Assembly (NCBI RefSeq): GCF_002845745.1
Contig: NZ_PIUM01000021.1
Span: 1-64,000, forward strand
Origin: Telmatospirillum siberiense
Lineage (GTDB): Bacteria; Pseudomonadota; Alphaproteobacteria; Rhodospirillales; Magnetospirillaceae
Reading direction: 5' to 3'
DNA: 64,000 bases
Below are positions 1 to 4,078 of this stretch, in pieces; the stretch's first letter is position 1, and each line of letters starts with the position of its first letter. Both the position numbers and the translations under genes were made by a program. A model generated the notes under the pieces. The model did not search any database. It saw only the letters and a list, made by a program, of their open reading frames with translations, and was not told the origin of the DNA.

Positions 1-164
1 CCATCGTTGGCGCGTAAGCCAAGCCGGCGGATGCCGGCGCCCGGCGCTTGAGGGACAAAATATATAACCGGAGCGGGCATCGCCCGCGACTGGGCCGTTG
101 AGGCCCCGCGCCATCGTTGGCGCGTAAGCCAAGGGGCCGGATGGCCCCGCCCGGCGTTTGAGGG
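1..164. repeat. Tandem structured repeat, 110-bp period (two partial units)
   Basis: A block starting CCATCGTTGGCGCGTAAGCC occurs at 1-54 and again at 111-164, exactly 110 bp apart. Each block holds a hairpin with loop GGAT whose arms differ between copies yet stay complementary: GCCGGC/GCCGGC at 23-38 and GGGGCC/GGCCCC at 133-148. Between them lie further short hairpins: GCGGGC/GCCCGC at 73-87, GGGCC/GGCCC at 92-106 and GCGCCA/TGGCGC at 108-123. Unit one is cut by the window edge, so the array may continue leftwards. It lies just downstream of the MATE gene on the minus strand and may also end that transcript. I do not know a name for this family. Confidence 0.75.
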
Positions 165-170
165 CTATTT

Positions 171-1586
171 CTATTTATAATCAAGCACCCCGAGCATCCG
201 CTCGGGGTGCTTGATGATCAGGCGGTCGATCTTGTGGCGGAAACGCAGGATCAGCAGGACGGCGGTGGCGGCCAGGCCGCCGGCGAAGCCCCACCACAGG
301 CCGATCGGCCCGAAATCCAGACCGAATGCCAGACCGATCCCGATCGGCATGCCCAGCACCCAATAGCCGACCAGGCCGGCGACCATCGCCGCCCGGCTAT
401 CCTTGAGGCCGCGCAACGCGCCCGAGGCGATGGCCTGGGCGCCGTCGAACAGTTGGAAGGCGGCCGCCACCAGGATCAGATGGACGCCGATGGCGAGCAC
501 GGCGTCGCGTTGGGGGTCATTCGCGTCGAGATAGAGCGAAAAGACGGCATGCGAGCAGAGGACCAGCGCGGCAGAACTGAAGACGGTGAAGGCAAGCCCC
601 ATGCCGAGCGCCATGAAACCGGCGTCGCGGGCACGGACGGGAAACCCGGCGCCGATGTGGAATCCGACACGCACCGTGGTTGCCTGGCCGATGGACAGGG
701 GCACCATGAAGGTCAGCGAGATGATGCCGAGACAGATCTGATGCGCGGCCAGGGCCACGGGGCCGAAGTGGCCCATCAGCAGGGCGGAGCCGGCGAACAG
801 CCCCACCTCGACCATCATGACTCCGGCGATCGGCCAGCCGATTCGCAAGACTGCGGAAACACCGGCCCGGATTTCCCAGCCGGTAAGCGCCGCCATCCCG
901 GGGGGAATAAGCCGGGCGCGGCCGGCATAGGCGATCAGGACCACCAGCGAGGCCCACCATACGATCGCCGTCGCATAGCCCGAGCCGGCCAGCCCAAGCG
1001 CGGGCAGACCCAAATGGCCGAAGACCAGGGCCCAGGCCAGCACGCCGTTGGCCAGGCAGGCGGCGACGGTGACGATCATGGTCGGGCGCGGCCGTTCGAT
1101 GGCCATCAGATAGTTCCGCACCACCGCCAGCAGCAGCGACGGCGGGATGGCCCAGACGAAGGCCAGCTCGTAGCGGAGCGTCAGACGGGCGATGGTTTCC
1201 GGTTCGCCCATGGCGATCAGGATGTGATCGATCTGGGTCAGCACGGCGATCAGCGGCACCGAGGCGACCAGCGAGATCAAAAGACCGGCGGCGATGACGC
1301 GCCCGGCACTGGAAACATCGCCGGAACCGCGGGCCTGTGCGACCAGCGGCTGGATGCTCATGGTCAGCCCCTGGACCATGATGATCATCATGAAGGACAA
1401 ATTGCCGCCCAGGCTGCCGGCGGCCAGCGAATCGACGTCGATCCGTCCCATCACCACCGAATCGGTGAGGTTCATAACCATCTGGGCGATCTGGGCGGCC
1501 GCGAGAGGCGCGGCCAGCGATAGAATCCTGAAGAACTCTCTCCGCCGGCCAGGCCCTCCGGCGGCCAGGCGGGAGTCCATCATCAC
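171..1586 (-). CDS. MATE family multidrug/toxin efflux transporter
   Basis: A 471-residue integral membrane protein of the MATE (NorM/DinF) type, which exports cationic drugs or metabolites in exchange for Na+ or H+. Two homologous six-helix halves are visible: about residues 20-235 (with an early stretch LAAPLAAAQIAQMVMNLTDS) and about 245-450 (IGWPIAGVMMVEVGLFAGSA). Length is normal for the family. The start is one of three consecutive ATG codons preceded by GGAA. Oddly, codons near the end are built from a perfect palindrome (181-214), so the C-terminal tail may be a recent addition. The substrate cannot be told from sequence. Family call is secure. Confidence 0.9.
   Translation of the reverse strand: MMMDSRLAAGGPGRRREFFRILSLAAPLAAAQIAQMVMNLTDSVVMGRIDVDSLAAGSLGGNLSFMMIIMVQGLTMSIQPLVAQARGSGDVSSAGRVIAAGLLISLVASVPLIAVLTQIDHILIAMGEPETIARLTLRYELAFVWAIPPSLLLAVVRNYLMAIERPRPTMIVTVAACLANGVLAWALVFGHLGLPALGLAGSGYATAIVWWASLVVLIAYAGRARLIPPGMAALTGWEIRAGVSAVLRIGWPIAGVMMVEVGLFAGSALLMGHFGPVALAAHQICLGIISLTFMVPLSIGQATTVRVGFHIGAGFPVRARDAGFMALGMGLAFTVFSSAALVLCSHAVFSLYLDANDPQRDAVLAIGVHLILVAAAFQLFDGAQAIASGALRGLKDSRAAMVAGLVGYWVLGMPIGIGLAFGLDFGPIGLWWGFAGGLAATAVLLILRFRHKIDRLIIKHPERMLGVLDYK
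181..214 (-). terminator. Perfect 15-bp palindrome inside the 3' end of the MATE gene
   Basis: Arms 181-195 and 200-214 are exactly complementary around the 4-base loop ATCC. The hairpin lies within the last codons, about 10 bases before the stop, and on the minus strand is followed by an A/T-rich stretch ending in the stop codon. It could be a terminator overlapping the coding end, or a palindromic repeat captured by the reading frame. Confidence 0.5.
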
Positions 1587-1617
1587 GTCGTTCCGATTGG
1601 GGGTGGATAAAAAACAA

Positions 1618-1647
1618 CGGCCCGCCGGGAGTTAATCCGGTGGGCCG
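1618..1647 (-). terminator. Hairpin plus T-run in the leader of the MATE gene
   Basis: On the minus strand a GC-rich stem (CGGCCCACCGG paired with CCGGCGGGCCG, one G-U pair) is followed by TTGTTTTTT, the layout of an intrinsic terminator. It lies about 30 bases upstream of the MATE start, so it is either the end of an unseen upstream transcript or an attenuator in the MATE leader. No upstream minus-strand gene is evident, which favours attenuation, but this is inference. Confidence 0.5.
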
Positions 1648-1875
1648 AAGCCGTTACGCTGACAAAATAGGGGCGTCGGCCGCCATTTGCGATGAAAAAA
1701 TTGAGGCGGCGGGAAGAACGAATGCGGTCCGTTCGGGAAAATGCCGTTACCGTAAGGGTCCGTTGATAAATCATCGAATTAACGGAGCCTGAGCCCGAGC
1801 GGCGCTTCTCGCCCGCCGTAGCGGAGCATGGGCGTCATATGGAATCTCAGGGCTAGGGTCTGTGGACATAACAAG

Positions 1876-1956
1876 CCCTCGCCCGCTTTGCGGGAGAGGG
1901 CGGCGAGCGTGAGCGAGCGGGTGAGGGATGCGCGCGTCTGCGCGGCAAATGACTCG
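1876..1956 (+). repeat. Left inverted repeat flanking the DUF559 gene
   Basis: Compound repeat read inward: hairpin CCCTC-G-CCCGC / GCGGG-A-GAGGG at 1876-1900, the octamer GGTGAGGG at 1920-1927, then a 23-bp core at 1934-1956. The right-hand copy (2406-2473) has the same three parts in inverted orientation, and the 23-bp cores match at 22 of 23 positions. The hairpin-plus-GTGAGGG part belongs to a type of intergenic repeat common in proteobacterial genomes; the shared core makes the two copies a specific pair. The rest of the intergenic stretch 1650-2010 shows nothing I can recognise. Confidence 0.7.
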
Positions 1957-2013
1957 CTTGTTCTGGAGGGGATGCGGGTAGGGAGCCCCTTCTGATCTTG
2001 GCATGTTTCCGTT

Positions 2014-2365
2014 ATGTTCTCATGCATGCCAGATGCTTTTGCCCGTGAATTACGCACCAACATGACCGATGCGCGAGAAGCGCCTTTGGTGGTTGGTGCG
2101 CAATCGGCAATTGGACGGCCACAAATTCCGTCGCCAGCATCCGATCGGTGTCTTTGTCGCCGATTTCGTCTGCATCGAGCGACGTTTGATCATTGAACTC
2201 GACGGCGGCCAACATGCCGACAGCGCTGGCGATGCGCGGCGAACGGCTTGGCTCGAAGATCACGGCTGGCTGGTCATCCGGTTCTGGAACAACGATGTTC
2301 TGACCGGTACCGAGGGTGTGTTGGAGGCGATCCTGCGAGCGCTGAAAGACTCGCCTTCTGTGTAA
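2014..2365 (+). pseudogene. DUF559 (Vsr-like) endonuclease-like gene, single-base frameshift
   Basis: DUF559 proteins are about 110-120 residues and share a Vsr/very-short-patch-type nuclease fold. The frame from 2014 gives the family's N-terminal stretch ARELRTNMTDA and then loses it. A second frame, open from 2069, gives EKRLWWLVRNRQLDGHKFRR, then VADFVC, ELDGGQH and VIRFWNNDV, which cover the rest of the domain. Removing one base within 2071-2074 (GCGC) joins the two into a continuous family-like protein of about 117 residues. So this is a one-base insertion or a sequencing error. The fragment from 2069 alone would lack the N-terminus. It is bracketed by inverted repeats (see 1876-1956 and 2406-2473). 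Confidence 0.75.
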
Positions 2366-2405
2366 ACCATTGAATCAAAACAGCTACCGCGCGTCAAGCA
2401 TTTGT

Positions 2406-2473
2406 CGAGTCATCTGCCGCGCAGACGCTAAGGCCACCCTCACCCTAACCTCTCCCGCCAGAGGCGGGAGAGG
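2406..2473 (-). repeat. Right inverted repeat flanking the DUF559 gene
   Basis: Mirror of the left repeat: 23-bp core at 2406-2428, CCCTCACC at 2437-2444, and a perfect hairpin CCTCTCCCGCC-AGA-GGCGGGAGAGG at 2449-2473. The hairpin is just downstream of the ahpF stop and may also help end the ahpCF transcript, although no T-run follows on that strand. Confidence 0.7.
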
Positions 2474-2497
2474 AGATAGCGAATGTCCACGGAGCGG

Positions 2498-4078
2498 TTA
2501 CGCCGCGTCCGCCGTTTCCACCGGAGCCAGACGGATCAGATAGTCGAAGGCGGACAAGGCGGCCTTCGAGCCCTCGCCCATGGCGATGACGATCTGCTTG
2601 TAGGGCACCGTCGTCGCGTCGCCGGCAGCGAAAACACCGGGCACCGAGGTCTGTCCGCGGCTGTCCACCTCGATCTCGCCGCGCGGCGACAGGGCCACCG
2701 TGCCCCTCAGCCATTCGGTGTTGGGGACCAGGCCGATCTGGACGAAGATGCCTTCCAGGTCGAGTTGGTGCGCCCGATCGGCAGCGCGGTCCTTGTAGGC
2801 GAGGCCGGTCACCCGGCTGCCGTCGCCCAGCACCTCGGTGGTCTGGGCGTTGGTGATCACCGTGACGTTGGGCAGGCTGGTCAGCTTGCGCTGGAGGACG
2901 GCGTCGGCGCGAAGCTTGACGTCGAATTCGATCAGCGTGACATGGGCGACGATGCCGGCCAGGTCGATGGCCGCCTCGACGCCGGAATTGCCGCCGCCGA
3001 TCACCGCCACTCTTTTTCCCTTGAACAGCGGGCCATCGCAATGCGGGCAGAAGGCCACGCCCTTGTTGCGATAGGCATCCTCGCCGGGAACGTTCATCAG
3101 GCGCCAGCGCGCGCCGGTGGACAGCACCACCGTCTTCGCCTTGAGCGCGGCGCCGTTTTCCAGATGTATCTCGATCAGGCCGCCGGGCGCCTGCGCCGGG
3201 ATCAGCCTGGTGGCGCGCTGCAGGTTCATGATGTCGACGTCATAGGTTCTGGCATGGCTTTCCAGCGCCGCGGCCAGCTTGGGGCCTTCGGTGTGGGGAA
3301 CCGAGATGAAATTCTCGATGGCCATGGTGTCCTGGACCTGGCCGCCAAACCGCTCGGCCGCGATGCCGACGCGGATGCCCTTGCGCGCTCCGTAGACGGC
3401 CGCCGATGCCCCTGCCGGTCCGCCGCCGACAACCAGCATGTCGAAGGGGGCCTTGGCCTTGATTTTTTCGGCATCCCGCAGGGCGGCGCCGGTGTCGAGC
3501 TTGGCCACGATCTGCTCCAGCGTCATGCGGCCCTGGGCGAAGGGCTCGCCGTTCAGGAAGACCGAGGGCACCGCGAGGACTTCGCGGGCTTCGACCTCCG
3601 ACTGGAACAAGGCGCCGTCGATGGCGACGTGGCGGATCTTAGGGTTGAGCACGCTCATCAGGTTGAGGGCCTGCACCACGTCGGGGCAGTTCTGGCAGGA
3701 CAGCGAGAAATAGGTCTCGAAACGGAAGTCGCCGTCGAGAGACTGGACCTGTGCGATCAGATCCTGCGCCGTCTTGGACGGGTGCCCGCCGACCTGCAGG
3801 AGGGCCAGGACCAGGGAATTGAATTCGTGACCCATCGGCAGTCCTGCGAAGCGCACGCCGATATCGGTGCCGGCGCGCCGGATGGCGAAGGACGGCTTGC
3901 GGGCGTCGTCGTCCCGGCGCGACAGCGTGATCTTGTCCGAAAGCGCCGCGATGTCTTCGAGCAGGCTCAGGAGTTCCTGCGACTTGGCGCCATCGTCGAG
4001 GGAGGCGACCAGTTCGACCGGTTGCGCGATGTTCGCCAGATAGACCTTCAACTGGTCCTTGAGAGTATTGTCCAACAT
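2498..4078 (-). CDS. ahpF: Alkyl hydroperoxide reductase subunit F
   Basis: A 526-residue FAD disulfide reductase that passes NAD(P)H electrons to AhpC for peroxide reduction. The N-terminal tandem thioredoxin-like domain (about 1-200) carries CQNC at residues 128-131. A Rossmann FAD motif [10 protein letters not shown] lies near 218, the redox pair CPHC at 344-347, and the NAD-binding [10 protein letters not shown] near 361. Length and both CxxC pairs match canonical AhpF. It follows ahpC after a 104-bp gap with a strong hairpin, so co-transcription with reduced expression is likely. An AGAGGAA ribosome site precedes the start. Confidence 0.97.

Follow-up and report, generated by a model that had tools for sequence, protein, structure and literature searches.

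A DUF559 nuclease gene enclosed by inverted triplex-type repeats in Telmatospirillum siberiense: a recurrent unit and its possible role in spreading the repeats

Introduction

Can a small nuclease gene that lies between two inverted palindromic repeats move together with them, and could its enzyme be the agent by which such repeats are spread? The question is raised by a locus in Telmatospirillum siberiense. In the 64-kb stretch of DNA analysed here (the window), inverted compound repeats surround a DUF559 gene at 2069-2365 on the plus strand. A sequence-only reading of the window had proposed that the enzyme could mobilise the repeats, or have been carried with them, and had drawn a link to REP palindromes and RAYT.

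In PMC1189080 Vsr was detected by a YcjD profile, and PMC9403480 assigns one DUF559 gene to the EDxHD homing family. The Caulobacter DUF559 protein VsrA is a predicted mismatch-repair endonuclease, and the DNA damage response of mutants without cytosine methyltransferase depends on it (PMC12907096). In Legionella pneumophila a segment that carries a transposase together with a DUF559 nuclease occurs three times, and these places are hotspots of mutation and recombination (PMC12308824).

Results

Architecture of the locus

The element and its neighbours consist of the following features.

171-1586, minus strand: MATE-like gene, named by reading of its translation
1876-2473: whole element (triplex-type repeat, DUF559, inverted triplex-type repeat)
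1876-1927, plus strand: left triplex-type repeat, relaxed TM pattern with zero substitutions; CCCTCGCCC at 1876-1884, loop, GGGAGAGGG at 1892-1900, 18-nt spacer, tail GGGTGAGGG at 1919-1927
1934-1956, plus strand: left 23-bp core GCGTCTGCGCGGCAAATGACTCG, matching the right core in sequence
2026-2073, plus strand: first 16 DUF559 codons, in another frame than the rest (tblastn with residues 1-16 of a relative)
2069-2365, plus strand: DUF559 (PF04480) open frame of 98 aa; family-invariant residues present, N-terminal part out of frame
2406-2428, minus strand: right 23-bp core, inverted, 22/23 identical to the left core
2437-2473, minus strand: right triplex-type repeat; stem 2449-2456/2466-2473, 3-nt spacer, tail GGGTGAGGG at 2437-2445
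2498-4078, minus strand: ahpF-like gene, named by reading of its translation

The tail points toward the DUF559 gene in the left repeat (1919-1927) as well as in the right one (2437-2445). The sequence bears out the earlier statement that all three parts, hairpin, tail and core, are present on both flanks in inverted orientation. The parts are the same, but the flanks are not identical base for base, the spacer between hairpin and tail being 18 nt on the left and 3 nt on the right. The two cores had been given as matching at 22/23 and lying 450 bp apart; they were found to match at 22/23 with 449 nt between them. At up to three mismatches they are the sole matches to the core in the 64 kb, and 100 shuffles gave none. 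An inverted-pair scan of the window with an exact seed of 12 yielded four inverted pairs of at least 20 nt within 900 bp, and the core pair was the only one above 90%. The octamer GGTGAGGG is present at 1920-1927 (plus) and 2437-2444 (minus), and by itself it is not rare in the window (3 observed vs 2.8 expected).

In folding, the simple hairpins beat 200 of 200 shuffles (z -4.1 on the left and -4.6 on the right). The entire left compound was less exceptional (z -2.6, equalled by 3 of 200 shuffles), and in the centroid structure of this repeat it is the tail that pairs with the outer arm, in place of the simple hairpin. An Rfam search of window positions 1500-2700 gave no match reaching any family's own cut-off. 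The DUF559 unit is positioned between the MATE-like and the ahpF-like genes. Downstream of the MATE-like gene, window positions 1-180 contain two copies of a GC-rich unit, CATCGTTGGCGCGTAAGCCAAG.

The DUF559 gene and its family

That the gene is DUF559-like was confirmed by the PF04480 profile (E 1.3e-35, 122 bits against a curated cut-off of 20.6); DUF559 and a sub-threshold MTES_1575 were the only profile matches in it. The gene is not intact. When the protein of a relative is aligned to it, two frames are needed: residues 1-16 align at 2026-2073 and residues 17-111 at 2075-2359 (tblastn). Judged from this alignment, the window copy looks frameshifted near 2074. Structure prediction on the window protein by itself gave a pLDDT of 39 and was set aside. 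In 24 aligned DUF559 proteins E43, D45, Q48 and H49 are among the invariant residues; D32, otherwise nearly invariant, is missing from the DUF559 of locus L038. The best solved-chain match of the DUF559 profile is 3HRL, 'Endonuclease-Like Protein' (E 6.9e-41). The profile also matches weakly PDB 3R3P, 'Mobile intron protein' (E 0.0055), which we take to be I-Bth0305I, and its match to the Vsr structure 1CW0 is non-significant (E 0.54). DUF559 matches were found in 5 of 50,697 phage records, each below 60% identity.

Enclosure of DUF559 by repeats in other genomes

DUF559 is present in 126 of 387 Alphaproteobacterial genomes. From this search 110 loci were taken among the matches listed, 30 supplied with it and 80 more following in listed order, three at contig ends being skipped, and 5 loci of the window's genus made up a set of 115. 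Inverted arms were scored after 5 of the 115 had been left out for short flanks. Arms scoring at least 20 across the gene were found at 64 of 110 loci and at 0 of 211 same-size control positions, which are mostly coding DNA. The same score was reached by 28 of 550 cross-locus pairs, by 0 of 330 dinucleotide shuffles and by 0 of 29 neighbouring ORFs, a small control. The other 46 of the 110 loci score below 20, and at least one inverted-arm locus is present in 46 of 76 genomes. Direct repeats across the gene are also frequent (37/110 loci at 20 or more). Hairpins lie in the first 100 bp at 0.63 of the loci upstream and 0.72 downstream, and at 0.03-0.08 beyond 300 bp. Both-side hairpins within 250 bp were seen at 70 of 115 loci vs 27 of 1139 random positions.

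Chance, base composition or ordinary terminator hairpins round a short gene could in principle give such a picture, and the octamer alone does occur in the window at chance frequency. This explanation is ruled out by the position, hairpin, ORF, cross-locus and shuffle controls, together with the triplex-grammar control given below, and we take it as refuted. The arrangement of repeat, DUF559 and repeat is almost certainly a real and recurrent unit.

Outside the Alphaproteobacteria, 14 loci were hand-picked from 46 plasmid-collection records. A triplex-type motif was present in at least one flank of 8 of them (E. coli, Klebsiella, Neisseria, four Deinococcus and one Synechocystis). No flanking triplex motif was found in the other 6 (Photobacterium, two Bacillota, two Picosynechococcus and Pseudanabaena); the Pseudanabaena locus has inverted arms, but of different sequence. 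Two IMG/VR contigs (L252, L253) also carry DUF559 with inverted triplex-type flanks.

The repeats fit the triplex-motif family

By their sequence the repeats fit the intrastrand-triplex-motif family TM/PIT, with which they have in common a pyrimidine arm, a purine arm and a purine tail. For this motif PMC4666352, which includes CD and NMR spectroscopy, gives the consensus CCCTCNCCCN3-6GGGNGAGGGN3GGGNGAGGG; the motifs are intergenic, with 23 copies in E. coli MG1655, five as inverted pairs, and BoxC structures were detected by a triplex tool. The triplex grammar was detected at 97 of 116 loci (115 Alphaproteobacterial loci and E. coli L213, two 350-bp flanks each) vs 3 of 218 single control segments, and this generic scan finds it at the window locus too. 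The box C repeats of enterobacteria are presumably triplex motif elements. In hairpins with asymmetric arms (n=456, overlapping and not independent), the tail matches the mirror of the arm in 105 cases, compared with 49 for a direct copy and 32 when the arm is shuffled; the mirror only is matched in 72 and the direct copy only in 16.

The right arm of the window fits by eye and was missed by the relaxed pattern, in which the first loop is at most 8 nt. The window copies fail the strict TM_ECO spacers of N3-6 and N3, having 7 and 18 nt on the left and 9 and 3 nt on the right; the spacers of the TM_ECO consensus are shorter.

Association of the repeat with DUF559

The pattern CCCTCYCCC..GGGRGAGGG..GGGTGRGGG is present in 99 of 387 Alphaproteobacterial genomes. 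It was found in 71 of 95 genomes with full-length DUF559 vs 28 of 292 others (Fisher 1e-33), where 31 of the 126 DUF559 genomes are classed as without full-length DUF559 (best E > 1e-20). These genomes with weak DUF559 only are not enriched for the repeat (3/31), and 24 of the 95 genomes with full-length DUF559 are without the searched pattern. Ten or more copies are present in 39/95 genomes with full-length DUF559 vs 6/292 without, a comparison that matters because the counts include copies next to DUF559 itself. Within the 33 mixed families the repeat is found in 44 of 64 genomes with and 19 of 78 without full-length DUF559, a difference reached by 0 of 20,000 within-family permutations. Control for GC came from the family strata and a reversed-pattern control, and the co-occurrence may partly reflect shared genome properties. 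The sequence-only reading was open to the objection that the repeats might occur genome-wide with no linkage to DUF559. They do occur genome-wide, but they are linked to DUF559.

The RAYT-type link of that reading did not hold: besides fitting the triplex-motif family, the repeat is unassociated with Y1_Tnp, being present in 20 of the 81 genomes that have it and in 79 of 306 others. Among 55 genomes having Y1_Tnp but no full-length DUF559 the repeat was found in none.

The repeat variant goes with the relatedness of the protein. Among 40 same-genome DUF559 pairs, all 6 with at least 62% protein identity share flank repeats (score of at least 42.5), vs 8 of 34 pairs below 60% identity that reach a score of 20. 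Divergent pairs in which each locus has its own flanks matching at 20 or more number 16, and 14 of these stay below 20. Across genomes the relation between protein and repeat is weak (rho 0.22, Mantel p 0.002).

The co-occurrence would also fit if DUF559 were a Vsr-like repair enzyme that removes lesions at hairpins or triplexes and is retained where such repeats are common, and the mismatch-repair prediction and DNA damage role of Caulobacter VsrA (PMC12907096) speak for such a function. However, a repair enzyme acting in trans needs neither two-sided enclosure nor joint travel with the repeats, and repeat and gene co-vary by variant. We hold this explanation to be quite improbable.

Repeats in the window genome and its relatives

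The 6.2-Mb window genome (G000) has three DUF559 matches, one of them within a 2015-aa frame. The second short DUF559 gene (C75, locus L001) has hairpin repeats on both sides, mainly as direct copies. The hairpin-plus-tail is found at 48 places in this genome, the window pair included. With 48 copies in 6.2 Mb the chance of a repeat within 1 kb of a given gene is about 0.018, and both short DUF559 genes have one. The core, at up to three mismatches, is limited to the window pair and one place at C21:63270 with 3 mismatches.

Of the 48 copies, 22 form 11 inverted pairs 108-113 bp apart, each pair bounding a MITE-like element some 200 bp long. Its inner sequence, at up to three mismatches, was found at 33 places in the window genome and at 1 in the relative G002, and it was absent from G001, G003 and G004. 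One end of the element bears a diverged form of the window core (GCGTCCGCGCGACATAAAGACTTG compared with GCGTCTGCGCGGCAAATGACTCG), and we infer that the short elements are gene-less relatives of the DUF559 unit. MITE-like copies at L010, L027 and L036 adjoin another dispersed repeat, GGCACCGGCGTCCCTGCC and its variants, which suggests nested repeats.

In genome contigs of 84,980 species a 20-nt core pattern matched 7 stretches, three from Telmatospirillum, one from Magnetospirillum and three from unrelated groups; the last three may be due to chance. The sequence-only reading expected paired cores elsewhere, and they exist. In the Telmatospirillum relative G001 (L053/L170) they enclose a decayed DUF559. 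Within this decayed element, at 2036-2503 of L053, there is a remnant resembling the transposase gene of L166 (256-624; DUF4096, IS4/5 type), and in L166 that gene immediately adjoins a core. In a Magnetospirillum MAG (L169, 3440-5242) the same compound ends hold a 530-aa IS66-type transposase and no DUF559, so the compound ends can carry other cargo. Eight plasmids were examined out of 231 records with relatives of this transposase; in 3 of the 8 the inverted ends are GTAAGCGGGGC-like, and the compound repeat was the best inverted match in 0 of the 8.

These loci bear on the possibility that repeats and unit alike are MITE-like elements which a DDE or HUH transposase of RAYT or IS66 type mobilises in trans, in line with the MITE-like form of the short paired element, the transposase within the same ends in L169 and the transposase gene beside the core in L166. 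Against it, the repeat is unassociated with Y1_Tnp, and RAYT is rejected as the agent for this repeat. The window genome has a single Y1_Tnp match, which is partial (E 8e-7), and no homologue of the L169 transposase was found in a search of the loci collected. Movement by such a transposase is in our view very improbable.

The E. coli DUF559 gene is ycjD. Of 5426 E. coli genomes, 3365 have it and 5348 have a match to the repeat on its 3' side, so the repeats persist without the gene. In E. coli L213 two exact TM consensus matches begin 13 and 219 bp beyond the match to ycjD, and L284 has one at 192 bp. The loci L213, L221 and L284 belong to the sapF-fabI gap, which holds an efflux operon in the ycjD-less strain KKo003; PMC12817139 describes an efflux operon at the ycjD place in ycjD-less strains. 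As an empty-site test ycjD is not clean, the gap being filled by the efflux operon in KKo003 and in the strains of that paper.

Another explanation makes DUF559 a passenger: recombination-prone triplex motifs would spread by some other process and capture DUF559 as they capture other small genes. It agrees with the 28 of 292 genomes that have the repeat but no full-length DUF559 (six with 10 or more copies), with E. coli, with the IS66-type transposase inside the same compound ends, and with the tie of triplex motifs to genomic instability in PMC4666352. It leaves unexplained why DUF559 in particular should be captured (71/95 vs 28/292) and why the variants match by protein relatedness (6/6 vs 8/34), and we consider it unlikely.

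Evidence that the unit moves

The six most similar same-genome pairs were compared on one strand. In 5 of the 6 the likeness covers gene and repeats only (L121/L127 over 467 bp, L094/L130 over 416 bp, L098/L102, L132/L142 and L064/L087). In the pair L109/L137 the similarity extends into more than 900 bp of the surrounding sequence, and this pair may be an ordinary duplication.

The locus L113 (genome G223) lies between VOC-like and cobC-like genes, named by reading. Three congeners (G033, G390, G291) keep both neighbours without the unit of about 660 bp and have 50-140 bp of other sequence instead. Among the matches listed for the 7 genomes of this genus, the unit is present in G223; G391 and G143 have the right flank only, and G353 has a weak right-flank match. 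The flanking repeat of L113 makes up most of at least 61 match rows in G223 and at least 58 in G390, where a palindrome can count twice. When the L113 junctions were compared by eye with the three congeners, no target-site duplication was apparent.

In Telmatospirillum G004 a unit lies between leuC- and leuD-like genes. The same gap holds a lone palindrome of the same type in G002 and other sequence in G000, G001 and G003. Three Deinococcus species carry the gene within related hpa clusters, each time in another gap, and a fourth carries it in a paa cluster. Four Deinococcus plasmids (L220, L293, L296, L298) have triplex-flanked DUF559 in differing gaps of aromatic-degradation clusters. For the window locus itself a clean empty site was not obtained; in G002 the ahpF-like gene is present, but other genes follow on its far side. 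The window-locus neighbourhood gave short partial matches only in G001 and G004 and none in G003.

The best reading of these data is that repeat, DUF559 and repeat together form a small mobile unit, and the best explanation of window positions 1876-2473 is a decayed copy of it. Of the two roles that the sequence-only reading had allowed the enzyme, being carried with the repeats agrees with units at unrelated sites and with their absence from three congeners; the other, moving the repeats, is what we infer in the Discussion.

Discussion

On balance we lean towards a model in which DUF559 is the nuclease cognate to these repeats and spreads them through DNA cutting followed by repair. The enzyme, a small nuclease of Vsr/EDxHD type, would recognise its own repeat variant and would cut or nick DNA at or beside it, the repeat thus being its target. 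Repair of the break from a copy of the unit, with the repeats serving as homology, would insert the unit. Alternatively, repair could leave repeat-only copies, either single or paired and MITE-like. A wider proposal, which we put forward tentatively, as possible rather than probable, is that DUF559/YcjD could be the missing agent of the PIT/TM repeats. The unit would then be a selfish element with a nuclease only and no transposase, whose Vsr-type enzyme of about 110 aa reads the hairpin or triplex of its own variant and, through the repair of breaks, propagates both itself and copies that consist of the repeat alone. Its range would take in Proteobacteria, Deinococcota and perhaps Cyanobacteria.

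Earlier work left open how triplex repeats spread. DUF559 is a concrete candidate for the agent because this one family predicts the repeats, is flanked by them at its own loci and varies in step with their sequence. The idea is testable in laboratory E. coli, since one or two TM motifs adjoin ycjD in the two strains examined. It further points to a possible function for a gene that is widespread but of unknown role.

The data tie a nuclease gene to an already known family of triplex motifs. The available main text of PMC4666352 reports no mobility gene near TM, and the words 'endonuclease', 'DUF' and 'ycjD' are absent from it, whereas the DUF559 repeats are tied to a nuclease gene. In the open-licence PMC literature, covered mostly by title and start of abstract, we found no link of DUF559 or ycjD to palindromic or triplex repeats. 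In the available parts of the YcjD/Vsr papers (PMC1189080, PMC12907096) the Vsr-like genes are not linked to repeats. The Legionella segment is larger than the unit described here and has a transposase, and palindromic or triplex repeats are unmentioned in the accessible text of PMC12308824. A likeness to EDxHD homing endonucleases is that the DUF559 gene is present or missing between conserved neighbours at L113. The EDxHD enzymes of phages carry extra DNA-binding regions, according to the part of PMC3943268 available, whereas DUF559, roughly 110 aa long, consists of one domain and lies amid dispersed repeats.

The likeness to the REPtron, as far as described in the accessible portions of PMC3733652 and PMC8266576, is in the small enzyme gene between inverted palindromes, in the gene-less dispersed copies and in the correspondence of enzyme and repeat variants; the co-evolution of TnpA-REP with REP (PMC8266576, available in part) resembles the co-variation of DUF559 with its repeat. 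The window locus has the flanking inverted palindromes and dispersed copies of a REPtron, and no Y1 HUH transposase gene between its repeats. The enzymes differ in kind, an HUH Y1 transposase in the REPtron and a PD-(D/E)XK/Vsr-type protein in DUF559. The repeats differ too: unlike REP, the DUF559 repeat has, by reading, a mirror purine tail and no GTAG or CGTC tag. If the role proposed for DUF559 is true, it would be a second, unrelated counterpart to the role presumed for RAYT in the spread of REPs.
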